DNA from: an uncultured Bacteroidota bacterium
GTDB lineage: Bacteria > Bacteroidota > Bacteroidia > Bacteroidales > 4484-276
Assembly: GCA_903944895.1 (NCBI GenBank)
Contig: CAJATL010000380.1
Coordinates: forward strand, 1-37,798
Direction: 5' to 3'
Length of the DNA: 37,798 nucleotides
Numbering within the stretch: position 1 is the first letter of the stretch; each line of letters begins with the position of its first letter. This document shows positions 4,735 to 22,729 of this stretch, in pieces. Under the pieces are notes generated by a model. That model ran no database searches, was not told the DNA's origin, and saw only the letters and a list, made by a program, of their open reading frames with translations. A program made the translations under genes and the position numbers.

Positions 4735-5265
4735 TTATTGGATGGCTTTGGTTGAATCAGCATTTTGGAAAATTTCGATCAATTCCTCTGGTGATTTTCC
4801 GAGGTATTTCAACGATACTTCGGCATCATCGGCAAATTCGTTGGTGGGATATTTTGCGATAAACGATTCGTAAATTTCTTTGGCTTTATCGAGGCGGCCA
4901 AGATTATTTTCGTAAACATAACCTTTTAAAAACAAGGCCTCCGGGGCTTTGCGGTAATCCGGAAAATCATTCAAAATCCGATCATAAAACCTGATGGCTT
5001 CCATCGAACGATTGGTGTTCATGGCGATATCGCCGGCTTTGAAAATATAGGAAGGTGCTAAAGTGTCATCTTTAAATTTATCAGCAAAAGCAATGTAAGC
5101 AGCAATCAGATCATTAACCTTGTCGGTGTTGAGTGCACCGTTTTCGGCGAAGGCCTCCTGTTCGGCTTTTTCGATAATTTTAATGTCTTTTGTACGCTGC
5201 GACTGACAAGCAGATAAAACAAACACGAATGCTGTTACCATTAAAAATTGAAATGACTTTTTCAT
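4735..5265 (-). CDS. tetratricopeptide-repeat lipoprotein
   Basis: 176 residues. The N-terminus MKKSFQFLMVTAFVFVLSAC carries a lipobox (LSAC, lipidation at Cys20), so the product is probably a membrane-anchored lipoprotein. The rest is helical with TPR-like repeats (SYIFKAGDIAMNTNRSMEAI, ALFLKGYVYENNLGRLDKAK, YPTNEFADDAEVSLKYLG), resembling the BamD/YbgF type but shorter than BamD. It is the last gene of an apparent ruvX-def-lipoprotein operon, 7 nt after def. The partner protein is unknown. Confidence 0.75.
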   Translation of the reverse strand: MKKSFQFLMVTAFVFVLSACQSQRTKDIKIIEKAEQEAFAENGALNTDKVNDLIAAYIAFADKFKDDTLAPSYIFKAGDIAMNTNRSMEAIRFYDRILNDFPDYRKAPEALFLKGYVYENNLGRLDKAKEIYESFIAKYPTNEFADDAEVSLKYLGKSPEELIEIFQNADSTKAIQ

Positions 5266-5272
5266 AAACTTA

Positions 5273-5857
5273 TTATTTTGGATTTGTTATTCTTTTCTTT
5301 TTTAAGGGAGGGAAAATCATTTTGTAATCGGGTTTGATATTTCCGGTTGTGATGTCCTGTAATTTGCGTTTTAGCAGCGTTTTCCGGAGCATACTTATTT
5401 TATCAACAAACAGGATTCCGTCGAGGTGATCGTATTCGTGCTGAATTACACGTGCAATCATGCCACTGTAGGTTTCATCGTGAAATTGCCAGTTTTCGTC
5501 GTAATATTCGATGCGGATGTCATTTTTCCGCCACACTTCTTCACGAATATTGGGAATGCTCAAACAACCTTCCTCCACCAGTTTTTCGTCGCCGGTGCGC
5601 TCCATAATATGTGCGTTAAGGAAAACTTTTTTAAAATCTTTGGCTTCAGGGATTTCATCGGCATAATGCGAGGCATCCATCACAAAAACCCTGATGGATT
5701 TGTTAACCTGGGGTGCGGCCAAACCAACACCTTCGGCAAAGTACATGGTTTCGAACATATCCCTGATAAATTGCTCCAGTTCGGGATAATCTTTATCAAT
5801 ATCCTGGGCAACTTTCTTTAAAACCGGATGCCCGTAGGCAGTAATGGGTAATATCAT
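5273..5857 (-). CDS. def: peptide deformylase
   Basis: 194 residues, usual length. Removes the formyl group from the N-terminal methionine of new proteins. All three metal-site motifs are intact: GVGLAAPQ at residues 43-50, EEGCLSIP at 95-102 (metal ligand Cys98) and QHEYDHLDG (His140, Glu141, His144). The start ATG overlaps the 3' end of ruvX by 4 nt, which suggests translational coupling. Confidence 0.96.
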   Translation of the reverse strand: MILPITAYGHPVLKKVAQDIDKDYPELEQFIRDMFETMYFAEGVGLAAPQVNKSIRVFVMDASHYADEIPEAKDFKKVFLNAHIMERTGDEKLVEEGCLSIPNIREEVWRKNDIRIEYYDENWQFHDETYSGMIARVIQHEYDHLDGILFVDKISMLRKTLLKRKLQDITTGNIKPDYKMIFPPLKKKRITNPK

Positions 5858-6291
5858 TGTATCAAATTTTTTAAAGTTATCGATCTGGACTGCATGTACG
5901 ACTGTAAAATGATCGTCGCACTGATGGTGTCAACAAGTTCTTTGTTCTGACGGGCTTTTTTACCCAGGCCTGATGCAAGCATGGTATCGTGGGCCATTTT
6001 TGAGGTAAATCGCTCATCGCACCTATCAACAGGAATATGAGGAAATTGTTTTATCAGTCTTCTCACAAAAGGTTCGATGAAGCGGGCAGCATCTGAGGGG
6101 GAATTGTTCATTTGCTTTGGCTCTCCGACAACAATCCGGTCAACTTTTTCTCTTTTAAAATAATCCTCCAGAAAAGTTAAAATATCCTTGGCATGAACAG
6201 TAGTCAGGCCGGTAGCAATGATCTGAAGTTCATCGGTAACCGCGATACCAGCACGTTTTTGTCCGTAATCGATGGCGAGAATTCTGCCCAT
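5854..6291 (-). CDS. ruvX: RuvX/YqgF-type nuclease (pre-16S rRNA processing)
   Basis: 145 residues with an RNase H-like fold. It starts MGRILAIDYGQKRAGIAVTD, where the first acidic active-site residue (Asp in AIDYG) is seen; VGEPKQMN and DERFTSKMA match the other conserved blocks. Known family members act in maturation of the 16S rRNA 5' end and were also named putative Holliday junction resolvases. It is first in the operon with def and a lipoprotein gene. Confidence 0.92.
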   Translation of the reverse strand: MGRILAIDYGQKRAGIAVTDELQIIATGLTTVHAKDILTFLEDYFKREKVDRIVVGEPKQMNNSPSDAARFIEPFVRRLIKQFPHIPVDRCDERFTSKMAHDTMLASGLGKKARQNKELVDTISATIILQSYMQSRSITLKNLIQ

Positions 6292-6437
6292 GAAAAATCT
6301 GAAATTTAATTTATCTTAAAAATATTTCCTGGTTTGGAGATTTACACCCTTTTCGCTGAAATCTGCAAACCGCGCAAAATTATAAAGAAAAAGGGTATCA
6401 GATAATTTTTTACCTATTTTTGAAGTTTCCGATAATT

Positions 6438-7256
6438 ATGAACATGGATTTAAAATTTATCATCGAAGATGCCTGGGAAAACCGGCAGAAATTGCAGGAA
6501 AGTGCAACGCGTGAAGCCATCGAAGAGGTTGTACGCTTGCTAGATGTGGGCGAAATCAGGGTAGCAGAACCTTTTGAAGGGGGCTGGAAACTGAACGAAT
6601 GGATTAAGAAAGCTGTGATTTTGTATTTTCCAATCAGGAAGATGGAGACCCGCGAAGTTGGGATTTTTGAGTTTCATGATAAGATTGAATTAAAGAAAAA
6701 TTACGCTGAACTTGGTGTCAGGGTTGTTCCTTCAGCCGTTGCCCGTTATGGCGCCTACCTTGCAAAAGGGGTGGTTTTGATGCCATCGTACGTAAATATT
6801 GGCGCTTATGTGGGCAGTGGAACGATGGTTGATACCTGGGCTACCGTTGGCTCATGCGCGCAGATCGGTAAAAATGTTCATTTAAGCGGTGGAGTAGGTG
6901 TTGGAGGTGTGCTGGAGCCGGTTCAGGCAGCACCGGTGATTATCGAGGATGATTGTTTTATAGGTTCGCGTTCGATCATAGTTGAAGGAGTAAAAGTTGA
7001 GCGGGAAGCTGTGCTTGGAGCCAATGTCGTAATCACCAATTCGACTAAGATTATCGATGTAACCGGCGATAAACCCATCGAAATGAAAGGCGTTGTGCCT
7101 TCACGGTCGGTGGTGATTCCAGGCTCCTATACCAAAAAATTTCCTGCCGGCGATTTTCAGGTTCCCTGCGCCCTGATTATCGGAAAGCGCAAACCGTCAA
7201 CCGATCTTAAAACTTCCCTCAACGAGGCGCTGCGCGACTATGAGCTGGCCGTTTAG
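6438..7256 (+). CDS. dapD: 2,3,4,5-tetrahydropyridine-2,6-dicarboxylate N-succinyltransferase
   Basis: 272 residues from ATG 6438 (a TTG at 6420 and an ATG at 6444 are alternatives). The N-terminal helical domain is followed by a left-handed beta-helix with hexapeptide repeats (GAYLAKGVVLMPSYVNIGAYVGSGTMVDTW region) and the motifs GGVGVGGVLEP and DDCFIGSRSIIVEGV of DapD. It transfers succinyl from succinyl-CoA to tetrahydrodipicolinate in lysine and diaminopimelate synthesis. It is divergent from ruvX across a 146-nt gap. Confidence 0.95.
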   Translation: MNMDLKFIIEDAWENRQKLQESATREAIEEVVRLLDVGEIRVAEPFEGGWKLNEWIKKAVILYFPIRKMETREVGIFEFHDKIELKKNYAELGVRVVPSAVARYGAYLAKGVVLMPSYVNIGAYVGSGTMVDTWATVGSCAQIGKNVHLSGGVGVGGVLEPVQAAPVIIEDDCFIGSRSIIVEGVKVEREAVLGANVVITNSTKIIDVTGDKPIEMKGVVPSRSVVIPGSYTKKFPAGDFQVPCALIIGKRKPSTDLKTSLNEALRDYELAV

Positions 7257-9127: not shown

Positions 9128-9201
9128 GGTCTGGTAGTTCAGTTGGTTAGAATGCCTGCCTGTCACGCAGGAGGTCGCGAGTTCGAGTCTCGTCCAGACC
9201 G
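9128..9201 (+). tRNA. tRNA-Asp (anticodon GTC)
   Basis: A 74-nt cloverleaf. The acceptor stem is GGTCTGG/CCAGACC with discriminator G9201, the anticodon stem CCTGC/GCAGG encloses loop CTGTCAC (anticodon GTC), and the T-arm is GCGAG-TTCGAGT-CTCGT. No CCA is encoded; the next bases are CGA. A terminator follows. Confidence 0.95.
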
Positions 9202-9214
9202 CGAATCAAAAATT

Positions 9215-9438: not shown

Positions 9439-11241
9439 ATGAGAAGAATATTTTTCCTACTTATCTTATCATTATTGCTCAGGTTGCCAATTATAGCCCA
9501 AACCGTGGTCTGGAACGAAAGTTTCAGCGATGCTCCCACAGATTGGACCATTGACGGGAACTGGGTTTTCGATAATGGCGCGTTGCTGTTTTACTATTAC
9601 CCGGTTTACGAAAATTTCGATTTCTCAGCCATCTCACCCGAAGTGCAAATTCCGGATTTCTCTTCCACATTAACGGTTAATCAGTTTATCGACCCTTACC
9701 TGAGCGGTGTGACCAACGAAATGTGTGAAATTTACGTGGTTGCCGAAGACGAAGAAGTAATGGTATTCAGTTATGAGATCATCAACGGAACATGGGGTGA
9801 TATGGGCGGAAGTACATTCAGCCACTCCCTTGATCAGTTCAAGGGTCAGAATGTTCGGTTTAAATTCCGCTCCCATGGCGCAACCACCAACTCTTTGTGG
9901 AACTGGACACTTTTTAATGTTTCGATTAGTACGAATTTCGATAATGAACTATCTGCAATCGCAGTTGGCGGCCCATCCAACGTTTTACCCGGAGTTGGCG
10001 GTAGCTGGTATTTTACGATGAAAAATACAGGACAATTGCCGCAATCTGATTTCAACGTCAAATTATTCAATTACAAAACCGGCGGTCAGATCGCCGAAGA
10101 AACCTTTACCGGCATTGTAAATCCCGGAGAGTTGTGTGAAGTTAATTTCGAATGGGTGCCTGAGGATTATCAAAATACCAGTTTGTATGCTGTAATTGAT
10201 GCCCCGGGTGATGAATTCCCGGCAAACAACCGCTCAAAAGGTTATTTTGTCAGGGTTGAACCACCGTTTGAACATAATATTCTTCTCTGGGATAACGACA
10301 ACGACATCGCGACCATCTACAACGCAGAAACCGGGCAAAAAGAACAGGCCAATGTTAGCATCGAAAATGCACTTTATCTCGCTGGAATTCCATACATTAA
10401 AGTAAATAGTCTGCCTGATGATCTGTCGGATTTCAATTTAGTGATTTGTACGATGGGGTCGTACTGTCTGAGCTGAAGTAATACCCCGCCCGGTACTGTA
10501 AATGCAGCAGACCAGGCTAAGCTAAACAGTTACCTCGACAATGGTGGTAGCTTGTACATCGAAAGTGTTAATCTTGGAATCGATCACGCGGGAAGTTCCA
10601 TGTTACAGCATCTTGGAATTAAATATTCTGGCGATGGCGAAAACTATGAAATCGATCATATGGTTTGTCAGTACAACACCTTTATGGATGATATGAATTA
10701 TGCTTATGGCGGCGGTGTTGATGCACATTATAGTGTTGATCGTCTTGTCCCAAACCAGTCAACCTGCCTTTATAAATCGGATGATGGTTTTGGAAGAACA
10801 TTTGCAATTTCCAATGATGTTTACAAAGCAATTTCGTCATCGGTAATTTTCGGGGCTTTCAAAAATGAGGATAGTCTGAGGACAAGACCTTACCTGATGG
10901 CTGAAATGATCAATTTTCTTCTTGGCATAACCACAATTACCTCCTTAACCGATCTAATGAATAATGAGGCTGTTTCGGTGATGAATTATCCAAACCCATT
11001 TACAAGTTCTACAAATTTCGAGATTTCGTTGCGTGAAACAGAAAATGTAAGTCTTGAAATTTTTGATGAATTGGGAAGGCTGGTTCACAATGAAAGCAAC
11101 GAAGAAATGGCTGCCGGAAAGCACATCAAAACCTGGGATGCAACCAATCAGCAAGGAAACAGGGTAAGAAGCGGAATGTACTTTTACAAGCTTACCTCTG
11201 GCGAAAAGGTCAGTTCAGGGAAATTTATGTTGATGGATTAG
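9439..11241 (+). CDS. predicted secreted selenoprotein A, T9SS cargo (in-frame TGA = Sec346)
   Basis: A 600-residue product if TGA 10474-10476 is read as selenocysteine; the frame stays open from 10477 to the TAG at 11239-11241. Order: signal peptide (1-21, ending LPIIAQ); beta-rich region 22-170 like a choice-of-anchor/adhesin jelly roll (DWTIDGNWVFDNGALLFYYY); Ig/CARDB-like region 170-272; flavodoxin/GATase-like region about 276-515 starting HNILLWDNDNDIATIYN; C-terminal T9SS sorting domain 520-600 (NYPNPFTSSTNFEIS ... GMYFYKLTSGEKVSSGKFML). Sec346 is in CLSU (Cys343). A -7-like TATTTTTG lies at 9369-9376. Sec reading rests on the paralog having the same TGA, on the conserved RNA block and on the adjacent sel genes. 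Domain names are by eye; catalysis is unknown. Confidence 0.88.
10466..10513 (+). promoter_or_regulatory. SECIS-like element, selenoprotein A
   Basis: It surrounds and follows TGA 10474-10476. Candidate fold 1 is a hairpin GGTACTG (10492-10498, one bulged A) with CAGACC (10508-10513), loop TAAATGCAG, starting 22 nt after the TGA. Candidate fold 2, which excludes fold 1, pairs GTCT-(GA)-GCTG (10466-10475) with CAGC-AGAC (10505-10512), enclosing the TGA and a small inner hairpin ACC/GGT with loop CCGCCC. The block is nearly identical in the paralog. Which fold SelB binds cannot be decided by eye. Confidence 0.7.
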
Positions 11242-11263
11242 CAAAATTTTTATCTGTCCGAAA

Positions 11264-11297
11264 AATACTTCATCTGTTAAGGTGAGGTATTTTTTTT
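11264..11297 (+). terminator. rho-independent terminator after selenoprotein A
   Basis: AATACTTCA at 11264-11272 pairs with TGAGGTATT at 11283-11291 (nine pairs, one G-T), followed by a T-run to 11297. The two selenoprotein genes therefore probably have separate transcripts. Confidence 0.75.
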
Positions 11298-11367
11298 GCC
11301 TTTCAAGGCTTATTTTTCTTACCTTAGCCGCATACTTTTCAGGATTATCAATGAATACTGTTAATGT

Positions 11368-13170
11368 ATGAAACGTGCATTGTATCTGATTTTTCTTGTT
11401 GTTTTGCCGGTAAATTCAATTTTGGCGCAAACCACGATTTGGGAAGAGAATTTTAATGCACCAAAATCCGGCTGGGAGATCGAAGGAAACTGGGCTTTTG
11501 AGTCAGGAATCCTGATTTTCAATTATTTTCCGATCAATATTAATTACGATTTTTCGGCCATCTCACCCGAAATTATCCTTCCCGAAAATGCTCCGGAAAT
11601 TACGGTAAACCAGTTTATCGAAACGTATCCTTCAAGTGTGACAAGCGAAGCATGCGAAATATCGGTGATTTTTGATGGTTCAGAGGAAGTAATCTGGTTT
11701 ATTGAACTCTCTCAGGGAAATTGGGGTAGTGAAGGTGGAGAGGAAATATCTTTTTCGATGGCACAGTTTGCCGGAAAAACCATCCGGATAAAAATCAGAA
11801 CCTGGGGCCCCACGACTGATGCATGGTGGGATTGGAGCGTTTATTCGATGAAAATTACTTCAGTTTTTAATCGCGATTTATCAGCCTCAGGCCTTACCGG
11901 GCCTTCAAATGTTTCGCCTGATGCTACGAATACCTGGCAGGTGCAGGTCAAAAACCTTGGGTTACAGCCCCAGACAGGGTTTATTGTTGAATTGGTCAGT
12001 TTCAAAACCGGGGAAGAATTAGGAAGTCAGTTGTTTAATGATGTTCTTGAACCTGGCGATAGTGCTTTTGTAAGTTTTGATTGGACTTTTGGAAGCCCTC
12101 AAAACACCTGTTTATATGGAAAGTTAACATCAGAGGAAGACGAATTCAATCAAAATAATATTACCAGGAGTCATTTTTTGAGGATAGAACCTGATTTTGA
12201 ATACCAGGTGTTATTGTGGGATAACGACAATGGCATCGAGACCATTTATAATCCCGAAACCGGCGCCCTGGAGCAACCCGACAAAGCATTTTCAGACGCA
12301 CTTACCTGTGCGGGTATCAATTTTGATTACGTCAATTCGTTGCCCGAAAATTTGGATGGTTACGAAATTATCATCGCTACTTTGGGCTGTTATTGCCTGA
12401 GCTGAGGTAATACCCCGCCCGGGTTTGTAAATGCAGCAAATCAGGTAAAGCTAATGAATTTTCTAAACCTTGGGGGCAGCCTATTTATCGAAGGAGTTAA
12501 TCTGGGTTTTGATCATGAAGCAACTGAATTTCTTGATTATCTGGGTGTGTGGTATGAAAATACGGGTGGAACCGATGAAGTTTCAGAGATTTTTGGTGCA
12601 GGAAATTCATTTTTCGATTCGGTAAATTTCGGTTATCATGGAGGTTCAGATGCTCACTATAGTATTGATCATCTTTCTAATACAACATCAAACGTATTGT
12701 ATTATTCTGAAGATGATTTGTCCAGAATATTTGTAAACAGCACCGAAAATTATAAAACTATAGCTGCTTCGGTTATTTTTGGGGCCTTTGCTGATGGTGA
12801 AAATCTAAATCTGAAGACCTACTACCTTGCCGAGATCATCAATTATTTTCTGGGAATTTCGCCGGTTACAGCTTTGAGTGAGTTGTTTACAAACCAAAAA
12901 ATTCAACTGTCAGCATTTCCAAACCCATTTTCAGAAGCTACGCAAATCTGCACATTTCTTCCCAATGAAATTTCAATTTCGTTACGGATTTTTGACGAAT
13001 CCGGGAATCTAGTCCGTGAAATTGCCAGGGGTGATTTTTCACAGGGAATGCATTCATTTTTCTGGAATGGCTTAAATGATCATGGCGAGCGGGTAAAAGA
13101 AGGGATCTATCTTTACGTCCTGGTGACAAAAAATCAAACAATTACGGCTAAGTTGATCATGTTGAAATAA
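11368..13170 (+). CDS. predicted secreted selenoprotein B, T9SS cargo (in-frame TGA = Sec346)
   Basis: A 600-residue product with TGA 12403-12405 read as Sec346, exactly the length and Sec position of its upstream paralog. The frame continues from 12406 (GNTPPGFVNAANQ) to TAA 13168-13170. Order: signal peptide (1-21, ending NSILAQ), jelly-roll-like region (SGWEIEGNWAFESGILIFNY), Ig/CARDB-like region, flavodoxin/GATase-like region (YQVLLWDNDNGIETIYN), T9SS-type C-terminal domain (AFPNPFSEATQI ... EGIYLYVLVTKNQTITAKLIML). The Sec context is CYCLSU, so Cys341 and Cys343 are both near. Also conserved in both paralogs is a CEI motif near residue 98. Sequence drift outside the TGA block is considerable, so this is not a recent duplicate. 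No terminator is seen before the tRNA-Sec, so readthrough into the sel genes is possible. Confidence 0.88.
12396..12445 (+). promoter_or_regulatory. SECIS-like element, selenoprotein B
   Basis: Fold 1: GGTTTG (12422-12427) pairs with CAAATC (12437-12442) around the same loop TAAATGCAG as in the paralog. One pair is C-G in copy A and T-A in copy B, a compensatory change. Fold 2: CCTGA-GCTG (12396-12404) pairs with CAGC-(AAA)-TCAGG (12434-12445) around an inner ACCC/GGGT hairpin. The TGA is at 12403-12405. Confidence 0.7.
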
Positions 13171-13273: not shown

Positions 13274-13300
13274 TTGCGTTGTATAAAATAAATATTTCAC

Positions 13301-13395
13301 AGAGAGGATGGAACTGGTGTTCCGGTTGGTCTTCAAAACCAATAACAGACGGATAAAACCGGCTGTGGCAGGTTCGATCCCTGCTCTCTCTGCCA
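13301..13395 (+). tRNA. selC: tRNA-Sec (anticodon TCA)
   Basis: About 95 nt with the marks of bacterial tRNA-Sec: six-pair D-stem TGGAAC/GTTCCG with a four-nt loop TGGT, anticodon stem TTGGT/ACCAA with loop CTTCAAA (TCA anticodon), a long variable arm (ACAG-A-CGG ... CCG-G-CTGT), T-arm GCAGG-TTCGATC-CCTGC, discriminator G13392 and encoded CCA 13393-13395. The acceptor AGAGAGG/TCTCTCT then gives 12 acceptor-plus-T pairs rather than the usual 13. Adding C13300-G13392 makes 13, but uses the discriminator. It lies 21 nt before selA. Confidence 0.93.
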
Positions 13396-13416: not shown

Positions 13417-14856
13417 TTGAAAAAACCTGATCAATCTTCCGAAAATTCGTTTTCATCATTAAGAAATCTTCCGGGCACCGACACCTTGCTTAACTGGCCT
13501 GAAGTGAAACAATTATTGGCAACGCATAACGCCGAAGTCGTTAAATTCTTCATTAAGAACACTATGAGCAATTTTCGTGATAAAGTTAAAAATGGTGCAG
13601 CAATTCCTGAAAAGGATGAAATTTTATCCCAGCTAAATCTGGGTTTAAAAAAACTGACATCTAAAAGTTTAAAACCGGTAATTAATGCTACGGGCATTGT
13701 GGTTCATACAAATCTTGGCCGTGCGCCTTATGGCACTGCACATCTCGATGATATTTTTAATGTTTTGAAAGGATATTCCAACCTTGAATTTGACCTCGAA
13801 AATGCCGATCGGGGATCGCGTTACACCCACGTAACCGAATTATTTAAATTTTTAACCGGTGCCGAAGATATTTTGGTGGTAAACAACAATGCTGCCGCTG
13901 TAATGTTGATTTTAAGGGCGTTTTGTAAAAATCGTGAAGTAATTGTTTCGCGCGGTGAACTGATCGAAATTGGAGGATCCTTCAGGATGCCTGATATTAT
14001 GAAGGCCTCTGACTGCAGGATGGTTGAAGTTGGAACAACCAACAAGACAAAAATTGGTGATTACGAAAAAGCCATCACCAAAAAGACGGCGATGTTTTTA
14101 AAGGTGCATCAATCCAACTATGTTATCAAAGGTTTTACGCACGAAGCCTCGTTGGATGAGTTGGTAGCTCTTGGAAAAATTACGGGTATTCCGGTTTTTT
14201 ACGACATGGGATCTGGCCTGCTCACCAAAGCTAATATCGAAATCTTAAAAGATGAACCTGACGTAAAATCCACATTGGCTCATGGTGTCGATTTGGTAAG
14301 TTTTAGCGGAGATAAATTGCTGGGTGGCCCTCAATCGGGCATTATTGCAGGTAAGAAGGAGCTTATCAAAAAACTTAAAAACGAGCCGATGACCCGGGCT
14401 TTAAGAGTCGGGAAAACCACGCTGGCTTTGCTCGAAACCGTTTGCCTGAGTTATCTCGACCAAAATGAACTTGCCAGGAATAATCCTGTTTTCAAAATGT
14501 TGGGAGCCACACCCGAAAGCCTGAAGAGTAAGGCAGAATTTTTAGGTAAGAAGCTTATTTCGAAAAATATAAACTGCAAAATTGTTCCAGGTTCAGGACA
14601 GACTGGTGGTGGCGCTTTGCCCGACAAAACCATCCCGAGTTTTGCCGTTCAAATCGAATTCCCGAAGGCCTCCCGAAAGGATAAAACCGCTTTTGCCGAA
14701 AATATTTTTAAAGAATTATTAAGGATCGAAACGCCAATGCTGGGCATTTTGCGCAAAGGAACGCTGCTTTTTGATGTGCTTACAATTCCTGAAGATCAGA
14801 TTGAAGAAGCTGCCCGGCTGATTATTGAAGTTTACAGGGAGGTGTGCCGTGATTAA
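13417..14856 (+). CDS. selA: L-seryl-tRNA(Sec) selenium transferase
   Basis: 479 residues starting at TTG 13417; the next in-frame ATG (13564) would remove about 49 residues of the N-terminal domain, so TTG is preferred. SelA is a PLP enzyme that converts seryl-tRNA(Sec) to selenocysteinyl-tRNA(Sec) using selenophosphate. Family motifs: INATGIVVHTNLGRAP near 89-104, DRGSRYTHVTELF near 131-143, VVNNNAAAVMLIL near 154-166, and SFSGDKLLGGPQSGII with the PLP lysine at Lys300. It lies 21 nt downstream of tRNA-Sec and overlaps selB by 8 nt, so tRNA-Sec, selA and selB look like one transcription unit. Confidence 0.96.
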   Translation: MKKPDQSSENSFSSLRNLPGTDTLLNWPEVKQLLATHNAEVVKFFIKNTMSNFRDKVKNGAAIPEKDEILSQLNLGLKKLTSKSLKPVINATGIVVHTNLGRAPYGTAHLDDIFNVLKGYSNLEFDLENADRGSRYTHVTELFKFLTGAEDILVVNNNAAAVMLILRAFCKNREVIVSRGELIEIGGSFRMPDIMKASDCRMVEVGTTNKTKIGDYEKAITKKTAMFLKVHQSNYVIKGFTHEASLDELVALGKITGIPVFYDMGSGLLTKANIEILKDEPDVKSTLAHGVDLVSFSGDKLLGGPQSGIIAGKKELIKKLKNEPMTRALRVGKTTLALLETVCLSYLDQNELARNNPVFKMLGATPESLKSKAEFLGKKLISKNINCKIVPGSGQTGGGALPDKTIPSFAVQIEFPKASRKDKTAFAENIFKELLRIETPMLGILRKGTLLFDVLTIPEDQIEEAARLIIEVYREVCRD

Positions 14857-16807
14857 ACACCTGATCATGGGAACTGCCGGCCATGTGGATCATGGAAAAA
14901 CCGCACTGATAAAAGCACTCACCGGCATCGACTGCGACACGCACAAAGAAGAAAAGGAGCGGGGCATTACCATAAACCTTGGTTTTTCGCATCTCGATTT
15001 ACCTTCTGGAAATTCGATCGGAATTGTTGACGTTCCGGGACATAAGGATTTTATAAAAACCATGGTAGCCGGGGCTTACGGAATTGATCTCGTGCTGCTT
15101 GTGGTTGCTGCAGATAGCGGGATTATGCCGCAAACCACCGAACATTTTAACATCATCAGGATGCTTGGGATAAAACATGCCATCGTTGTGCTCAATAAAA
15201 CCGATCTTGTTGATGAGGAGATGCTCGAATTAGCCAAATTTGAAATCATGGAGTTTCTGGAGAAAACGCCCTTTAAAGATGCCCAGATTATTGGGGTTTC
15301 GTCGTTGACTGGCTGTGGAATTTCTGAACTGACGGAACAAATCGACCGCATGGTTTCGATAATTCCTGAGCGTAAAACAGGTAACATTTTCAGACTTTAC
15401 ATCGACAGGATTTTTAATATTAAAGGCCATGGTTTGGTGGTGACCGGATCGGTGCTGAATGGAGCTGTGGAGACCGGTGATGAACTTTTTTTGCTTCCCG
15501 GAAGAAACGACCGTTTAAAGATCCGCAGCATCGAGCGGCACGGAAAAACTGTTCAGAAAGTTGTGGCCGGCGAACGTGCAGCGTTAAATTTGTCTGGACT
15601 GAAGTTTATCGATTTTGAGCGTGGCATGTTGCTTTCAAACCGGGATATTACCGAAACAGCGCTGTTAGATGCCCATTTGAAGCTTTTTGAAAACGATGTC
15701 AGGCTTGGCGTGTGGTCGCAGGTGATTTTTCATACAGGAACTTTTAATACCAAAGGCCGGATTCATCTTATCGACAAAGACCTGGTGCAGGGTGGTGAAG
15801 AGGCCATCGTTCAGATTCATCTCGAAAAGCCCGCCATACTGCTTAACAAAGACAAATTTATTATTCGCAATTCGTCCAATGACCTCACGCTTGGCGGAGG
15901 CACCATTGTTGACGTTTCGCCGCTGCATCACCGTCGCCGCACCGAAAAGCTTGCAAATAGCCTCAAGCAGGTTGTCAATGCGATTTTGAGCCAGGAAAAC
16001 ATGCTCAGCCTCATCGAACTGGAGTTAAAAAAAGAAGGCCGGCCATTGTTTGCACATTCGCTTGCCTTGTCCCTGGATATTGAAATTGATGAATTAGTCG
16101 AGATTTGCACAACTGAAGGGGCAAATAGCATTTTAATATATGATTTTCAGGAAGGAAAATTACTGGTTTCGGCGGCTTTTGAGCAGGCTTTGACTGAGAA
16201 AATCGTAGAAGAAATAACGCTTCATCATCAAAAAAATCAGATTTTTGAAGATGGCCCCGAACAAAAAGAAATGGCCGGAAAGCTTAATTTTAAATCGGCA
16301 ACCGAATTGAAATATCTTGATTTGCTAATTAAAAAAATGCTCGGGAATTCGATCCTGAAAAAATCAGGGAAAACACTGGCATTGCAAAGCCATCGCGCTA
16401 TGATTGACCCCAAAATGCAGGAACAGATCGATTGGCTCGAACAAACCATCCTTGATTTTGGGATGCAAAAAACTTCATATCCTGAGCTCGAAACCCTCGC
16501 TTTAAAACGCAATCTTAATAAAGGACTTTTGAAAATGCTGCTCAACTACCTGGTCAGGAAAAGCAGGATTTTTTATGATGGCGAAGATGTGATTCATCAA
16601 ACGATGGTCGAAAGTGCACGCCAAAAGCTACTGAAAACCCTTGCTACAAAAGCAAACGGCATCAACGAGAAAGAGTTTCGCGAACTAATCGGAGGCACCA
16701 AAAAAATTGTCCAGGTTTTGATTGACCTTTTTATTGATGAAGGCATCATCGAAAAACGCACCTTTTATCTGATGATTACCGAAGAGGGACGGGAATATCT
16801 GCGATAA
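14849..16807 (+). CDS. selB: selenocysteine-specific elongation factor SelB
   Basis: 652 residues from GTG 14849, preceded by a strong ribosome site AGGGAGGTG (14836-14844), unusual for this phylum. The GTG overlaps the selA stop. The GTPase domain carries GHVDHGKT (residues 11-18), DVPGHKDF and NKTD; EF-Tu-like domains II and III follow (residues about 175-350). The C-terminal half (about 370-652) has the winged-helix repeats that in SelB bind the SECIS hairpin. SelB brings Sec-tRNA(Sec) to UGA codons on the ribosome. The natural partners here include the two SECIS-like hairpins at 10466-10513 and 12396-12445. Confidence 0.96.
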   Translation: MIKHLIMGTAGHVDHGKTALIKALTGIDCDTHKEEKERGITINLGFSHLDLPSGNSIGIVDVPGHKDFIKTMVAGAYGIDLVLLVVAADSGIMPQTTEHFNIIRMLGIKHAIVVLNKTDLVDEEMLELAKFEIMEFLEKTPFKDAQIIGVSSLTGCGISELTEQIDRMVSIIPERKTGNIFRLYIDRIFNIKGHGLVVTGSVLNGAVETGDELFLLPGRNDRLKIRSIERHGKTVQKVVAGERAALNLSGLKFIDFERGMLLSNRDITETALLDAHLKLFENDVRLGVWSQVIFHTGTFNTKGRIHLIDKDLVQGGEEAIVQIHLEKPAILLNKDKFIIRNSSNDLTLGGGTIVDVSPLHHRRRTEKLANSLKQVVNAILSQENMLSLIELELKKEGRPLFAHSLALSLDIEIDELVEICTTEGANSILIYDFQEGKLLVSAAFEQALTEKIVEEITLHHQKNQIFEDGPEQKEMAGKLNFKSATELKYLDLLIKKMLGNSILKKSGKTLALQSHRAMIDPKMQEQIDWLEQTILDFGMQKTSYPELETLALKRNLNKGLLKMLLNYLVRKSRIFYDGEDVIHQTMVESARQKLLKTLATKANGINEKEFRELIGGTKKIVQVLIDLFIDEGIIEKRTFYLMITEEGREYLR

Positions 16808-17036: not shown

Positions 17037-17954
17037 CTAAGATAAACCTTTCACTTCCTCCAAAACCCAGTCAATCCAGGGTTCCATGCCTTCACCGGTT
17101 TTTACCGAAAGTTCAAAAAACTTCAGTTTTGGATTGATCCGCAAGGCATATTCCCGCGCCTTTGCAACATCAAAATCAACATAAGGCAACAAATCTGTTT
17201 TGTTGATGATGCAGATATCCGAAGTTTGGAACATGGTCGGATATTTTAGAGGTTTGTCGTCGCCTTCGGTTACACTGATTACAACCACCCGCTTCGATTC
17301 GCCAAGATCGAACAATGAAGGGCAAACGAGATTACCAACATTTTCGATGACTAAAATTCCATTTTCATTCATTTCCAGCTTTTTAGTTGCTTTGTGCACC
17401 ATGTCAGCATCCAGGTGGCAACCGTTGCCGGTGTTGATCTGAACCACAGGAGCGCCGGCAGCTTTAATCCGGTTTGCGTCATTCATGGTTTGCTGGTCGC
17501 CTTCGATCACATAAATTTCGGCTTTACCTTTTAAAGCGGCGATGGTCTTTTCGAGCAGGCTTGTTTTTCCTGATCCCGGTGAGCTTACGAGGTTGACGAC
17601 AAACAGTTTTTTTGCATCAAAATAACCGCGGTTTCTGGCTGCAATCAGGTCGTTCCTGTGCAGTGCATCCTCTTCGATTACTATTTGCCGGCTATGACTG
17701 TGGGGATGATCGTGGTTGTGAACATGGTCATGTTGGCCTTCACCATGTTTATGTTCGTGAAGGTGTTCATGATCGTGATGAGCATCTTCAAAATCATGAC
17801 TGTGGGCATATTCGTGGTCGTGACTGTGAACATGAAGTTCATTGCCATGGCTGTGTTCGTGAGCATGAATGTATGAATGAGGGTGTTCCTCTTCACCCGG
17901 TTTTAAAATCCTGATGGGCTGATCGTTTTGCCCGCATCCGCAAGTTCCGCACAT
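17037..17954 (-). CDS. hypB: hydrogenase nickel incorporation GTPase HypB
   Basis: 305 residues from the ATG at 17954-17952. The open frame extends upstream to 18035 but the extra residues are not family-like, whereas MCGTCGCGQ supplies the N-terminal CxxCGC nickel site (Cys2, Cys5, Cys7). Residues 24-88 hold 26 histidines in 65 residues, a Ni-storage stretch. The GTPase domain has SSPGSGKTSL (P-loop), EGDQQT, GNGCHLDADM (metal site) and NKTDLL. HypB with HypA delivers Ni to the active site of NiFe hydrogenases. HypA is the next gene upstream on the same strand. Confidence 0.96.
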   Translation of the reverse strand: MCGTCGCGQNDQPIRILKPGEEEHPHSYIHAHEHSHGNELHVHSHDHEYAHSHDFEDAHHDHEHLHEHKHGEGQHDHVHNHDHPHSHSRQIVIEEDALHRNDLIAARNRGYFDAKKLFVVNLVSSPGSGKTSLLEKTIAALKGKAEIYVIEGDQQTMNDANRIKAAGAPVVQINTGNGCHLDADMVHKATKKLEMNENGILVIENVGNLVCPSLFDLGESKRVVVISVTEGDDKPLKYPTMFQTSDICIINKTDLLPYVDFDVAKAREYALRINPKLKFFELSVKTGEGMEPWIDWVLEEVKGLS

Positions 17955-17989
17955 AATTATATATTTTTTTGGTGTAGTTTCTTTTAAAA

Positions 17990-18210
17990 GCACAGCGCAT
18001 GGCGCAAAGCGCGGAGCGCAAAAATCAAATCTCAAATCTCAAAAAACAAATCTCAATTTACAAATTGCCAGCCGGTAGTTGCCAGTCGGCAGTTGCCAGT
18101 CATTCAAAATTCAAAATTCAAAATTCAAAAATCCAATCTCCAATCTCCAATCCTAAATATGAAATCACCAATCCTAAATCCGAAATCATCAATCCTAAAT
18201 CCAAAATTCT
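17990..18210. repeat. low-complexity tandem repeats between hypA and hypB
   Basis: The 256-nt gap holds CAAATCTC repeats (about 18027-18055), near-copies of AGTTGCCAGTC (18075-18100), ATTCAAAA repeats (18103-18130) and three units of a 21-nt repeat starting AATCCTAAAT (about 18150-18205). No gene is seen. It lies inside the likely hypA-hypB operon. Confidence 0.75.
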
Positions 18211-18552
18211 CTAATCAACATTAATGGCTTTTACCCGGAGTTCCTTTCCCTGTTTGACTTCCGGGTTAAATGAACCACAAAACGGGCAAGGGTCAAAAAG
18301 GTTTTGAAGGTCAAATTCCATTTTACAATCCAGACATTGACCTCTTCCCTGGAGAAAATGAAGAACAATAACTGCTTTGTCGGCTATAGTGCCTTTAATT
18401 GCTGATTCCATGGCAAATTCCATCGCATCCAAAACAACACCCGAAAGTTCTCCAACTTCAATTTCGATTTCATTAACTACGCTGGCACCGGCCTTTTCAG
18501 CGTATTGGTCAACAATATCAATAATACTTAAGGCGATCGAAAATTCATGCAT
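18211..18552 (-). CDS. hypA: hydrogenase maturation nickel chaperone HypA
   Basis: 113 residues, normal length. It begins MHEFSIA, giving the N-terminal His2/Glu3 nickel site. The zinc-binding CxxC pairs are CLDC and CPFC in the C-terminal half (GQCLDCKMEFDLQNLFDPCPFC). It works with HypB in Ni insertion into NiFe hydrogenase. It is divergent from the zinc-ribbon gene at 18771, with 218 nt between them. Confidence 0.96.
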   Translation of the reverse strand: MHEFSIALSIIDIVDQYAEKAGASVVNEIEIEVGELSGVVLDAMEFAMESAIKGTIADKAVIVLHFLQGRGQCLDCKMEFDLQNLFDPCPFCGSFNPEVKQGKELRVKAINVD

Positions 18553-18685
18553 AACATCAGCTAATTTCCTGCAAAGGTAAATTTATCAACTTAACCAGCT
18601 TCTCAAACATCATGATTTCTTTATCTGGCCGAAAAATTCCGGCTTAAATGCATGATATGTTAAATTGTAAATATTTGGAAAATTG

Positions 18686-18718
18686 TTTGACTTTTATTGT
18701 CTGAAAATAGTATTTTAG
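18686..18718 (+). promoter_or_regulatory. promoter-like boxes for the zinc-ribbon gene
   Basis: TTTG at 18686-18689 and TATTTTAG at 18711-18718 (one mismatch to TAnnTTTG), 21 nt apart. The start codon lies about 45 nt after the likely transcription start. Confidence 0.5.
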
Positions 18719-18770
18719 CGCGTTAATCGTAAGATATTTTTTAAACGAAAATTTAAAATTTGGAGGTTTT

Positions 18771-19178
18771 ATGTCAAATCAAGTTTCTTTATTTGTTAAA
18801 TGTCCGCATTGTGATAAATCGTTTATGGATGCTGAAAACCCTATTAATGGCGAACCAAGCATCAGAATAAATATTGTTACTGCCAGCGAACGGGGCGTTT
18901 TAAGATTGTGCTCACTTTATGGGTGCTATGAACATGAAAGTGATATCGTGCTTAACGACAAAGAAATAGTAACGATTTATTGCCCTCACTGCAACAAATC
19001 ACTGATGCGCGAAGAGAAGTGTGAACTTTGCGAAGCCCCGATGGTTGGCATGAATATTAAAGTCGGAGGAAGAGTAAACATTTGTTCGCGTAATGGTTGC
19101 AGGAATCATTATGTCGCCTTTAACGATATTGCAGGCGCACTTAATAAATTTTACCACCAGTATGGGTTTAGTGGATAA
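18771..19178 (+). CDS. small double zinc-ribbon protein of unknown function
   Basis: 135 residues, with a ribosome site TTGGAGG 6 nt before ATG 18771. Two similar halves are visible: KCPHCDKSF ... LRLCSLYGCYEH (residues about 9-52) and YCPHCNKSLMREEKCELC ... VNICSRNGCRNHYV (about 66-118). Each half offers a CxxC pair and a later CxxxxC plus His. No family name is recognised. No signal peptide, so probably cytoplasmic. It is the only plus-strand gene within the minus-strand hyp cluster, which may hint at a metal-related task, but that is inference from position alone. Confidence 0.75.
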   Translation: MSNQVSLFVKCPHCDKSFMDAENPINGEPSIRINIVTASERGVLRLCSLYGCYEHESDIVLNDKEIVTIYCPHCNKSLMREEKCELCEAPMVGMNIKVGGRVNICSRNGCRNHYVAFNDIAGALNKFYHQYGFSG

Positions 19179-19187
19179 AGTTTAAAT

Positions 19188-19290
19188 TCCAAATTCCAAA
19201 TTTCAAATAACAAAATTCCAAATGGAAGATTCACAATTCTGAAGAATGATTTTTTATTGCTTTTGAATTTGGAATTTGAGATTTGAGATT
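19188..19290. repeat. inverted AAATTCCAAAT repeats between convergent genes
   Basis: AAATTCCAAATTCC near 19188-19201 and TTTGGAATTTGAG near 19266-19280 are inverted copies flanking the 119-nt gap between the zinc-ribbon gene and hypE. They may form a hairpin, and are also typical low-complexity filler of this genome. Confidence 0.5.
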
Positions 19291-19297
19291 TGCTTGT

Positions 19298-20317
19298 TTA
19301 ACATATTCTTGGGAGCATTTCACCAGCCAACATATCAATAATTCTCCGGCCGCCAACTTCGGTTTGCATCAGTACTTTGCCAGGATTAGATCCGGTAATT
19401 TCACCGATTATTGCCGATTCTTTGCCAAGCGGGTGTGCCTGTAGAACCTTCAGAATATGATCAGCATCCTTTTGGGAAACCACCATAACTACTTTTCCTT
19501 CGTTGGCCAGGTAGAGCGGGTCAAATCCAAAGATTTCGCAGGTTCCTTTCACAATTTCCTTTACAGGGATATTTTTTTCATCAATCGAAATACCCAGCTT
19601 TTTACTTTTTGCAAGTTCGCAAAGAACAGTCGCAATTCCGCCTCTGGTGGCATCACGCATAAATTTGATGCCGCCGATAATATTGAGGGCATCACCAATT
19701 AACCCATTCAGTGCCACACAATCCGAATTAATCTCCGATTTAAAATTCAACGATTCACGTGCTGCAAGGATTGCAATGCCGTGGTCGCCAACAGATCCGT
19801 TAATAATTATCTTATCCCCGTCTTCAACATTTGTCCCAAAACTGATGTGCTTTTTGTCTTCCTCCATTTCGCCGATACCTGCGGTGTTGATGAAAATCTT
19901 ATCGCATTTTCCCCTGTTCACCACCTTTGTGTCGCCGGTTACAATTTTTACACCAGCAATCTTTGCCTCTTCAGCCATGGTTTTAACGATGGTTTCGAGA
20001 TCATCCATCGGGAAACCTTCTTCGATAATAAACCCACAACTCAGGTAAAGCGGTTTTGCCCCCGAAACAGCAAGATCGTTTACGGTGCCGCAAACCGCCA
20101 GTTTCCCAATGTTTCCACCCTGGAAAAAGATGGGATCAACCACGTACGAATCGGTGGTGAAGGCGATATTTTTTTGTGATAATCCGAGAATTGCCGAGTC
20201 GGTTTGCGCATCAAGATGGTCGTTGCTGAAATATTTCACAAACAGCCCGCCTATTAAGTCGTGCGATAGTTTGCCGCCGCTGCCGTGGCTAAGAAGAATA
20301 TTTTGGTTTGATGTCAT
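19298..20317 (-). CDS. hypE: hydrogenase expression/formation protein HypE
   Basis: 339 residues, an AIR-synthase-like ATPase. It opens LLSHGSGGKLSHDLI, contains DSYVVDPIFFQGGNIGKLAV and DATRGG, and ends with the catalytic tail PRIC, whose terminal Cys339 carries the thiocarboxamide that becomes thiocyanate. HypE makes the cyanide ligand of the NiFe hydrogenase iron with HypF, and hands it over through HypC/HypD. HypC and HypF are not in this window. Confidence 0.96.
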   Translation of the reverse strand: MTSNQNILLSHGSGGKLSHDLIGGLFVKYFSNDHLDAQTDSAILGLSQKNIAFTTDSYVVDPIFFQGGNIGKLAVCGTVNDLAVSGAKPLYLSCGFIIEEGFPMDDLETIVKTMAEEAKIAGVKIVTGDTKVVNRGKCDKIFINTAGIGEMEEDKKHISFGTNVEDGDKIIINGSVGDHGIAILAARESLNFKSEINSDCVALNGLIGDALNIIGGIKFMRDATRGGIATVLCELAKSKKLGISIDEKNIPVKEIVKGTCEIFGFDPLYLANEGKVVMVVSQKDADHILKVLQAHPLGKESAIIGEITGSNPGKVLMQTEVGGRRIIDMLAGEMLPRIC

Positions 20318-20352
20318 TGTCTTTTAATTATTTTTAGGATGTCTGGTGAAAT

Positions 20353-21498
20353 TTAAAATGTGCTGTTCTTACCAAGATAAATCTGAATAAACCAAAGCCT
20401 GAACAAAGGATCAATAAACTCGATTTTGCTACCCCATAAATCAATGATTTCGCGGTTTTCGAGTGAAGTTTTAATGCGGGCGATGTTCGCTTGAACACCA
20501 AGATCATAAGTTGTTAATGTTTCTTTTGATGAAAATTGTGTTACACCATCAGCCAATGCTTTTAAAAAGCTGATTTGTTTGTTGGTAAGGTTATCGAGTT
20601 CACGCTGGAACAAAAGTGAGTTTTGAATAAGTAATTGATTTAGCGTGGTTTTAATTGTTTCAGGAGTACAGGTATCAATTGTATTCTGCCAGACATTTTT
20701 GGCAAACCATTGAACAAAATATGGATGATTTTCCATTAATTTTGCTATCCTGGAAGCCAATTCAGGCGTAATGTTTTTTTCTGTTTCGTTAAATTGTTTT
20801 ACGATGTATTCAACCCAAAACTCATCCGAAATTTTATTAAGAAACACCGTCTCGCCAAACTTGTAAAATGGCATCGATTTGCTTTCAAAGATTTCGGCAA
20901 GCATGTGTCGTTTGCTGCCGTATAAACAATAGGCCACCGTTTGGTGCTTTTGCCAGATTGACCGCAATTTTTTCTGAAAAGACAAAGATTGATCGAAATG
21001 GGCAATGTTTTGAAATTCGTCAATGCACACAACAACTTTAATTTTTTTATCTGATGAAATTTTTTGCGGTAGCTCTAATATTTCGTCCTGCGATTTTTTC
21101 AATTCCTTCCAGTCGAAGGTTATTTTAAAATCATGAAAAGGATCGAGGCCAACATTAAATCGTGGGATGAGATTGGAGAAGAATTTTTTTCCGTTTTTAA
21201 GCCAATCGTCCATTTTTGACGAGGTAGATTGAATTAATTTGGTAGCAAAAGCTTCATAAAATTCCTCTTCGCTGCGGATATTGAATAAATCAATAAAACA
21301 GAAGCGCAAATCAGGACTTTCCGTGTTAAGTTGCTCGGCAACACAATTTACCAATGACGATTTCCCCCAGCGTCGCGGCGAGATAAGTATGGTGTTGATG
21401 CCACTTGTTAAATTGAGTTTAAGATATGCTGATTCTTTCTCCCGGTTTATAAAATTTTCTCCTTCGGCTAATTTGCCAAAAACAAACGGTGCTTCCAT
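20353..21498 (-). CDS. AAA-type P-loop ATPase, archaeal-ATPase-like family
   Basis: 381 residues from ATG 21498-21496; a TTG at 21516 is also in frame but lies within the -7 box. Walker A is SPRRWGKSS (about residues 40-48 in this numbering) and Walker B is VVCIDEFQN. The C-terminal part (about 280-381) looks like a winged helix (ALADGVTQFSSKETLTTYDLGVQANIARIKTSLE) followed by RLWFIQIY. Proteins of this STAND/archaeal-ATPase type are common, mobile and of unclear role. It interrupts the run of hyp genes between hypE and hypD, has its own promoter-like box and an unusual repeat array upstream, so it is probably not a maturation factor. Confidence 0.8.
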   Translation of the reverse strand: MEAPFVFGKLAEGENFINREKESAYLKLNLTSGINTILISPRRWGKSSLVNCVAEQLNTESPDLRFCFIDLFNIRSEEEFYEAFATKLIQSTSSKMDDWLKNGKKFFSNLIPRFNVGLDPFHDFKITFDWKELKKSQDEILELPQKISSDKKIKVVVCIDEFQNIAHFDQSLSFQKKLRSIWQKHQTVAYCLYGSKRHMLAEIFESKSMPFYKFGETVFLNKISDEFWVEYIVKQFNETEKNITPELASRIAKLMENHPYFVQWFAKNVWQNTIDTCTPETIKTTLNQLLIQNSLLFQRELDNLTNKQISFLKALADGVTQFSSKETLTTYDLGVQANIARIKTSLENREIIDLWGSKIEFIDPLFRLWFIQIYLGKNSTF

Positions 21499-21513
21499 GG
21501 TTAAATGTTTCGG

Positions 21514-21545
21514 CAAAAGTACAACACAACTTTGTGTTTCACAAC
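21514..21545 (-). promoter_or_regulatory. promoter-like boxes for the ATPase gene
   Basis: On the minus strand TACTTTTG (21521-21514) matches TAnnTTTG exactly, and GTTG (21545-21542) is a weak -33 box 20 nt upstream. The predicted leader is only about 10 nt. The spacer lies inside the palindromic repeats at 21525-21584. Confidence 0.5.
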
Positions 21546-21584
21546 TTTGTGTTACACAAAAATGTGTTGCGGAAAAATGTATTG
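21525..21584. repeat. four 15-bp palindromic tandem units upstream of the ATPase gene
   Basis: Units: CACAACTTTGTGTTT (21525-21539), CACAACTTTGTGTTA (21540-21554), CACAAAAATGTGTTG (21555-21569) and CGGAAAAATGTATTG (21570-21584). The first three each contain a CACA...TGTG palindrome and neighbouring units form further ones (TTTGTGT-T-ACACAAA). The array covers the promoter spacer, as an operator would. Confidence 0.75.
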
Positions 21585-21643
21585 AAATCCTTTATTCTAC
21601 GGCTCGCTTTTTCTTGCACAATTTAGGTAAACTTCATTCATTT

Positions 21644-22729
21644 TCAACCCTCCCTATTATACCGATACCACGCGTGGCAGGAGCCTTCGCTCGAAACCAT
21701 GCAGGCGCCAACCGGGTTTTGTGGGGTGCATGCTTTGCCATAGAGTTTGCAATCTTTTGGCAATTTAAGTCCTTTTAAAATTTCTCCACAGATGCAGCCT
21801 TTGGGTTCGATGGTTTTTTCGATTTCGACGGGAATCATCTTTTCGGCATCATATTTCGAAAATTCATCTCTTAATTTTAATCCGCTGAGTTTTAAAATGC
21901 CAAGCCCACGCCACCAGTCATCGCGAAGTTCGAAAACATCGTACATCAGTTTTTTTGCTTTTACGTTGCCTTCGGGCTTTACGGCACGGGTGTATTGAAT
22001 TTCGACTTTAAGGTCGTTTTCTTCCATTTGTTTTACCAGCATATAAATTGATTGCATTAGATCAACCGGTTCGAAGCCTGAAATTACGCAGCCAAGTTGG
22101 TATTTTTCGGCGATGCCGTTGTACATTTCGGAGCCTGTAATTGTGCTCACATGGCCGGGACCGATGTAACCATCGATTTTTACACCTTCGTCGATGAGGG
22201 CGGCCATGGCAGGCGGCATAATTTTATGCGAACTCAGCAGAAAGAAATTTTTAAGCCCGAGTTGCTGAGCCATCATGATTCCTGCTGCGCTGGCTGGTGC
22301 CGTCGTTTCGAAGCCAATTCCAAGAAAAACAACTTTTTTGTCTGTATTTTTCTTCGCAATTTCGATGGCTTCCATAATCGAATAAACAATCCTGACGTCG
22401 GCGCCTGCGGCCTTTTCCCGGTCGAGGGATGAAGTTGAACCCGGCACCCTGATTAAATCGCCAAAAGTGGTGATGATAACCTCCGGAAGCCTTGCCAGTG
22501 CGACTGCGTGATCGATAAAACTGCGGCTCGACACGCAAACCGGGCATCCCGGCCCAGAAAGCAATTTGATGTTTTCGGGCAGGAGCGAGGGAATTCCAAA
22601 CTTCTGGATTGACATGGTGTGGCCGCCGCAGACTTCCATCAAGCGGATTGGCTTTGTCGAAATTTCCTTAATTTTTCCGGCAATTTGCAGCACTAATTCC
22701 TTATTCCTGTATTCGTCGATGTACTTCAT
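21644..22729 (-). CDS. hypD: hydrogenase maturation protein HypD
   Basis: 361 residues. HypD is the iron-sulfur scaffold on which Fe(CN)2CO is built. Conserved blocks are present: VCGGHTMSI near residues 38-46, LSGPGCPVCVSS near 57-68, GIGFETTAPASA, GPGHVSTI, CVISGFEPVD, CICGEIL and the C-terminal CMVSSEGSCHAWYRY with cluster-ligand cysteines. It is the most upstream hyp gene in this stretch, and followed (towards lower coordinates) by the ATPase. Confidence 0.96.
   Translation of the reverse strand: MKYIDEYRNKELVLQIAGKIKEISTKPIRLMEVCGGHTMSIQKFGIPSLLPENIKLLSGPGCPVCVSSRSFIDHAVALARLPEVIITTFGDLIRVPGSTSSLDREKAAGADVRIVYSIMEAIEIAKKNTDKKVVFLGIGFETTAPASAAGIMMAQQLGLKNFFLLSSHKIMPPAMAALIDEGVKIDGYIGPGHVSTITGSEMYNGIAEKYQLGCVISGFEPVDLMQSIYMLVKQMEENDLKVEIQYTRAVKPEGNVKAKKLMYDVFELRDDWWRGLGILKLSGLKLRDEFSKYDAEKMIPVEIEKTIEPKGCICGEILKGLKLPKDCKLYGKACTPQNPVGACMVSSEGSCHAWYRYNREG

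Follow-up and report, generated by a model that had tools for sequence, protein, structure and literature searches.

The use of selenocysteine (Sec, U) in a CxxU redox motif, encoded by UGA with an element resembling a selenocysteine insertion sequence (SECIS) downstream, is familiar from GrdA and from SelW-like and AhpD-like selenoproteins (Table 1 of PMC13188914). Exported selenoproteins as such are also already known, and the same table lists a TonB-dependent receptor of the FCYXU type and an MtrB/PioB-type barrel. A further entry in that review, a glutamine amidotransferase-like selenoprotein related to the C-terminal region of CTP synthase (NF004836, with the motif GxUxG), may have a class-I-glutaminase-like fold. 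The tandem genes a and b discussed here lie in a 37,798-nucleotide (nt) stretch of DNA from an uncultured member of the Bacteroidales (assembly GCA_903944895.1, contig CAJATL010000380.1; the whole stretch is called the window below). They share something with each of these systems: a CxxU motif and a UGA followed by a SECIS-like element with the first, predicted export of a Sec protein with the second and, by a low-confidence model, a possible fold with the third. They appear to belong to a new, apparently undescribed family of exported selenoproteins in Bacteroidota.

The locus also differs from all of them. None of the selenoprotein models of NCBIfam is matched at E 0.01, those for GrdA, SelW-like, AhpD-like and CTP-synthase-related proteins included. 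The CxxU motif stands among other domains, in proteins that end in a tail for the type IX secretion system (T9SS), and no form with cysteine in place of Sec has been found; the motif reads CLSU-(S/G) and follows the third strand of the modelled core, unlike GxUxG. None of the envelope-exposed selenoproteins in Table 1 of PMC13188914 is named there as T9SS cargo, and that table, from a review of May 2026 that covers 119 prokaryotic selenoprotein families, has no entry of this kind. Searches of an open-licence library gave no paper on a T9SS selenoprotein, and a description elsewhere is possible.

The reading preferred here is that genes a and b encode full-length exported selenoproteins, to which we assign a probability of roughly 0.88; judged from the sequences, Sec decoding of UGA 346 is considered near-certain. 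The first-pass annotation of this DNA had already proposed a selenoprotein pair outside the known families. That proposal is now backed by a family-wide TGA, an RNA element, linkage to and co-occurrence with the Sec machinery, and absence from the 119-family catalogue; the T9SS sorting tail and the relatives of the Sec domain were not named in it.

The gene pair and its family

Translation bears out the claim that each gene contains a single in-frame TGA, at codon 346 of 601, after which the frame stays open for 254 sense codons up to a TAG or TAA. The two products are 42% identical and have the same architecture. As had been foreseen, the standard list of open reading frames (ORFs) breaks the pair into four separate pieces (9439-10476, 10552-11241, 11368-12405 and 12454-13170).

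Relatives were sought in the window's own genome and 58 relatives of it, in one scan of named genomes, and in 393 genomes of the same order. In the order search 171 of the 393 genomes matched at E 1e-15, mostly by way of the sorting tail or a peptidase-type domain, and the best three candidates per genome were scored, so that lower-ranked members could be missed. All told, these sources yielded 27 distinct genes that cover the TGA site, in 20 genomes from seven families of one order. All are full-length except G010a, which is cut at its start by a contig end. This count leaves out two C-terminal fragments from which the site is missing (G005:C143 1-480 and G124:C167 6896-7330), and loci L030, L031 and L032, taken from their equal lengths to be the same contigs as G001:C1039, G120:C118 and G108:C53, were counted once. 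The named records of three members are Bacteroidetes or Bacteroidales metagenome-assembled genomes. The members from G108 run to 887 and 867 residues (L032 6912-9572; L099), and the one at L032 is longer by nearly 300 residues in the stretch that separates the Sec domain from the T9SS tail.

Every one of the 27 genes has TGA in the same column, and no other codon occurs there. Cys343, Thr349, Pro350, Pro351 and Gly352 are invariant as well, and eight of the 40 invariant residues fall within the 17 positions from 338 to 354. Residue 341 is a further Cys in 17 genes, giving CxCxxU, and is not Cys in the other ten. Two of the genes (G005 and G010b) use TGA as their own end codon, so in those genomes it still works as a stop.

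Both halves of the gene are under purifying selection. The ratio of nonsynonymous to synonymous substitution rates (dN/dS) was computed on either side of the TGA. Downstream, from codon 361, six of seven gene pairs give 0.18-0.37, the seventh being saturated; upstream, the five of seven pairs that could be computed give 0.12-0.18. Many of the dS values exceed 1, which makes these ratios rough. Since the values are higher after the TGA than before it, the second half appears to be somewhat less constrained. The shared column and the low ratios downstream uphold the original argument that the TGA is not a chance stop. In a tree of the family, gene a groups with gene G001a of genome G001 and gene b with G001b (100/100 in each case), and because a and b thus sit in separate, well-supported groups, the duplication behind the tandem pair is not recent.

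No cysteine form was found among the 27 genes, the window's genome and its 58 relatives, or the 393 genomes of the order. Samples of 395 genomes each from the phylum (E 1e-12) and the class (E 1e-20) contained no further members or cysteine forms; the phylum sample matched the window's own genome and four genomes with a weak relative that lacks the loop, the class sample the own genome alone. The search for homologues with Cys at position 346, which the first-pass annotation had suggested, therefore came back empty from the order, phylum and class samples, and from the peptidase-type relatives described below.

There are also two decayed relatives. Genome G345 (L102, G345:C33, 5739-6107) keeps a stop-broken fragment of residues 97-214 alone, and neither a tRNA-Sec at the cut-off nor a SelB over the cut-off was found in it. 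In genome G085 (L101, G085:C6, 5149-5690) residues 161-274 and 537-600 survive without the Sec domain, and this remnant adjoins tRNA-Sec, selA and selB. Loss of the gene has thus been accompanied by loss of the machinery in one case and not in the other. Homologues with a plain stop at the TGA and a decayed downstream half had been named in advance as evidence that would count against selenoproteins; these two remnants do not include the TGA site, and they have also lost parts that lie upstream of that site.

The RNA element and the selenocysteine machinery

A stem-loop 12-41 nt after the UGA would direct Sec insertion, a role that is strongly supported by comparison of the family genes. When excess synonymous identity is compared across all windows of 12 codons, codons 348-359, close behind the UGA, rank first (0.319, with a mean of 0.042 and a standard deviation of 0.048; 26 genes, G006 left out), and the Val354 codon is GTA in 26 of the 27 genes. 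The stem, ten pairs at +12 to +41 nt drawn from single-sequence folds, is paired in 90.4% of 270 cells, compared with 22.6-43.3% when it is slid along the alignment, and none of 500 shuffles reaches its paired percentage, its covariation score or its 10 cells with both sides changed. At pair 24-36, which joins two third codon positions, U-A is replaced by C-G in G274 and G182; these genomes are related, so the change may be one event. A covariance model built from the 27 family sites, with at most 150 candidates scored per genome, scores every one of those sites at E 6.5e-14 or better in a scan of 22 genomes, and because the next-best site has only E 0.01, no other clear copy of the element is seen. 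The apical loop starts 23 nt from the UGA, within the 16-37 nt that serve as a criterion for bacterial selenoproteins, and the invariant GU of the Val354 codon lies within the closing pairs of that loop.

That said, several results weigh against the element. Of the 270 stem cells, 26 do not pair; three of the ten pairs have changed on both sides (matched by 38 of 500 shuffles), the number of further pair types is seven (matched by 158 of 500), and a shift of the stem by +1 gives 11 both-side-changed cells compared with 10 in place. RNAalifold alone gives six inner pairs only, at -3.1 kcal/mol, and when the window's two elements are folded as single sequences they do not clearly outdo shuffles. 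Moreover, the usual model of the bacterial SECIS places a G within the first two positions of the apical loop (PMC13188914), whereas the 7-nt loop here, AAAUGCA, has no G in either.

The window's own genome contains tRNA-Sec, SelA, SelB and SelD, and the first-pass annotation was right to place the genes for the first three downstream of the pair, where matches to RF01852, TIGR00474 and TIGR00475 all exceed their cut-offs. SelB together with the neighbouring tRNA-Sec would decode UGA 346 as selenocysteine. The searches for the gene and for tRNA-Sec each covered 393 genomes of the order, taken as the same set; tRNA-Sec is present in 40 of these (E 1e-9 or better), among them all 13 that have the gene (hypergeometric probability 1.7e-14 with relatedness ignored, the 13 falling in seven families). 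In the remaining 27, tRNA-Sec occurs without a match to this gene, which cannot therefore be the sole reason for Sec in the order. At E 1e-9 the tRNA-Sec search also matches 3 of 14 controls. In a further scan of 59 genomes only matches above 55 bits were counted, because weak ones occur in all 59 and in all 14 controls; by this measure 10 of the 12 genomes in the window's family have a clear tRNA-Sec, G006 and G010 being those that do not. SelB is over its cut-off in 18 of 22 genomes checked and missing in G001, G005 and G010 (83-89% complete) and in G345.

A few genomes run counter to this co-occurrence. G010 (83% complete) has the gene with neither tRNA-Sec nor SelB over the cut-off, G006 has SelB and no tRNA-Sec over the cut-off, and G001 and G005 have tRNA-Sec with no SelB found.

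Physical linkage is frequent: a tRNA-Sec/selA/selB cluster contains the gene or has it close by in 13 of 20 genomes. In G002 one gene lies between (about 1.5 kb), and in G168 the selenoprotein gene adjoins a second selB. The link was not seen in the other seven genomes, partly on contigs of 3.7-5.9 kb. In five of 22 loci examined the cluster also includes members of two further gene families, of which one tested member each proved to be YedF and SelD (NCBIfam). The selenium cluster of G168:C18 (L098) contains two different selB genes (5053-7014 and 17048-19024), with YedF-, SelD- and desulfurase-like genes and two selenoprotein copies between them. Near the start of the selenoprotein gene there is a tRNA-Asp in three genomes (window 9128-9202; L030 44-120; L087 9697-9771).

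In the window's genome, the two commonest selenoproteins, FdhA and SelD (PMC13188914), were examined for use of Sec. SelD (G000:C149:28087-29010, L107) was ruled out, having an active-site Cys (GLGCACKI) and no internal stop, and six matches to FdhA are all under the cut-off with no stops inside, so neither is seen there as a Sec protein. By eye, this SelD lies within a 743-residue open frame that has a cysteine-desulfurase-like start, apparently a desulfurase-SelD fusion.

Export and the Sec domain

The family proteins are predicted T9SS cargo, destined for the cell surface. Both window proteins match the sorting-domain model TIGR04183 (45.1 and 28.0 bits, cut-off 23); the tail of gene b is under the cut-off of Pfam Por_Secre_tail (20.3 bits, cut-off 27), a model that matches all 19 members scanned at E up to 1. 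By eye, the N-termini of both products are basic and then hydrophobic, ending near AQT. The product would leave the cell by way of a signal peptide and the type IX system and, because of the sorting tail, would presumably act at the cell surface or outside. As for the other domains, 18 of 19 members have a CARDB-like domain (E up to 1), and the N-terminal beta domain has an InhA-like MAM match in two of 19. No Pfam or NCBIfam (20.0) model matched the Sec domain. At E 0.01, NCBIfam gave C-terminal matches only (sorting tail, FlgD and the like), one sequence search of the PDB gave FlgD-like and aspergillopepsin matches only, and another gave nothing convincing.

The Sec domain may have an alpha/beta fold like that of ThuA and class I glutaminases. 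The best VIA row of its AlphaFold model has Z 9.9 (root-mean-square deviation, rmsd, 3.7; 156 aligned), and ThuA-like or class I glutamine amidotransferases are represented by 4pxy (Z 9.8, rmsd 3.1, 140 aligned) and 1t0b (Z 9.7, rmsd 3.6, 159 aligned). However, Pfam gives no ThuA or glutaminase match to the domain, and the best Foldseek match has E 1.5e-3, with none at E 0.001 or better. Sec346 is presumably not at the known nucleophile position of these enzymes. Confidence in the model is low, which counts against the assignment: the predicted local distance difference test score (pLDDT) is 59.8, with the Sec loop below 50, and the predicted template-modelling score is 0.70. The full-length model has a pLDDT of 58.4.

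In the model the CxxU loop (C-x-x-U-x-x-T-P-P-G, with Cys343 and Sec346) comes after the third strand of the core, and the invariant groups W284-D287-N288, C343-U346-TPPG and E375 all follow strands, in positions that may put them on one edge of the sheet. This is most likely a built site with CxxU at its heart and a redox function. Sec346 and Cys343 would then form a reversible selenenylsulfide that exchanges with extracellular thiols, disulfides or another oxidised substrate; the chances that the CxxU pair itself is the redox centre seem about even.

The nearest relatives of the Sec domain belong to T9SS-secreted peptidases of the C25, M14 and S8 types, which carry a homologous accessory alpha/beta domain. 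Six of seven large proteins drawn from previous matches show this homology (E for the full sequence 1e-20 to 1.9e-13). In these other secreted proteins of the order the homologous domain stands between the peptidase and the T9SS tail, and a peptidase (C25, M14 or S8) is present in four of five proteins scanned. Unlike the selenoproteins, these relatives lack the CxxU-TPPG loop, leaving a gap of about six residues, and none of 25 aligned rows has Cys at either CxxU column (23 genes, the rows L066/L106 and L068/L105 being one gene each; one further row is short of the site). Conversely, no peptidase match was found in the 19 selenoprotein members scanned.

Features of the window and of the gene a product (nucleotide positions unless residues are stated)
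Feature	Position	Strand	Remarks
Selenoprotein gene a (P0001)	9439..11241	+	600 aa, Sec at 346 (predicted)
TGA codon 346 of gene a	10474..10476	+	predicted to be read as selenocysteine
SECIS-like stem-loop of gene a	10488..10517	+	7-nt apical loop starts 23 nt after UGA
Sec domain of gene a	10270..10974	+	residues 278-512; low-confidence model resembles ThuA and class I glutaminases
T9SS type A sorting domain of gene a	10987..11229	+	residues 517-597; TIGR04183
Signal peptide of gene a product	residues 1-21		by eye
Beta domain of gene a product	residues about 22-168		low-confidence model
CARDB-like domain of gene a product	residues about 169-277		weak
Terminator-like hairpin between genes a and b	11260..11295	+	consensus match only
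Selenoprotein gene b (P0002)	11368..13170	+	600 aa, Sec at 346 (predicted)
TGA codon 346 of gene b	12403..12405	+	predicted to be read as selenocysteine
SECIS-like stem-loop of gene b	12417..12446	+	
T9SS type A sorting domain of gene b	12916..13158	+	TIGR04183, 28 bits, cut-off 23
tRNA-Sec (selC)	13298..13394	+	anticodon TCA; RF01852, 63.1 bits, cut-off 47
selA	13417..14856	+	TIGR00474, 534 bits, cut-off 268
selB, selenocysteine-specific elongation factor	14825..16807	+	TIGR00475, 327 bits, cut-off 242

Beyond this cluster, on the minus strand at 17037-22729, the window carries the hydrogenase maturation genes hypB, hypA, hypE and hypD. A 381-residue ORF between hypE and hypD (20353-21498) has no NCBIfam match at E 1e-10. 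A PADLOC scan gave no match.

Competing explanations and significance

Beyond the identification of full-length exported selenoproteins, a broader proposal can be made tentatively. It holds that this is a surface selenoprotein family in which Sec replaced no Cys: a new CxxU loop in the accessory domain of secreted peptidases would have created a Sec-only extracellular redox centre which, in part of the order, may be one of the chief reasons for retaining the Sec machinery. The gene would head a selC-selA-selB(-yedF-selD) cluster, and loss of the machinery would go with loss of the gene and not with conversion to Cys. Loss of both is represented by one case, G345, while G085 retains the machinery but has a decayed gene.

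Among the alternatives, the one that survives best would retain an exported selenoprotein and have the CxxU bind a metal or metalloid (mercury, arsenic, or selenium itself, as in scavenging), the place in the cluster reflecting selenium handling. The association with tRNA-Sec, selA and selB, joined in some loci by the YedF and SelD families, and the CxCxxU form of the majority of genes would suit such a role, but the additional Cys is missing from ten of the 27, a place in the cluster could simply secure the supply of Sec, and no clear metal-binding domain model was matched, a CopC match at E 0.0077 in one of 19 members being among the weak ones. On balance, metal or selenium binding appears unlikely.

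Less probable by some distance is the idea that UGA 346 works mainly as a regulated stop, a selenium switch that would yield a 345-residue form under selenium shortage and the full form under ample supply. Termination is possible at any UGA/SECIS site if Sec-tRNA runs short, and since the gene lies upstream of the machinery genes, polarity could couple their expression to selenium. The short form would, however, be missing its sorting tail along with the greater part of the Sec domain, purifying selection acts on both halves, and the hairpin between genes a and b resembles a terminator, if by consensus match only (the region has seven terminator-like sites, compared with a shuffle mean of 4.3 and standard deviation of 2.3). 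A sequencing error, a pseudogene mutation or a changed genetic code can in effect be ruled out despite the two decayed relatives, given a TGA common to all 27 genes, two of which also end in TGA, a downstream half under purifying selection and a tRNA-Sec with anticodon TCA next door.

If genes a and b do encode full-length exported selenoproteins, they add an apparently undescribed family whose genes are split in two by gene callers, and their frequent place in the Sec cluster provides a simple marker for finding further members. With no Cys form found, Sec seems to have arisen here together with a new loop, a case relevant to why Sec is retained at all. The family also suggests that selenocysteine chemistry takes place at the T9SS-served cell surface of Bacteroidota.

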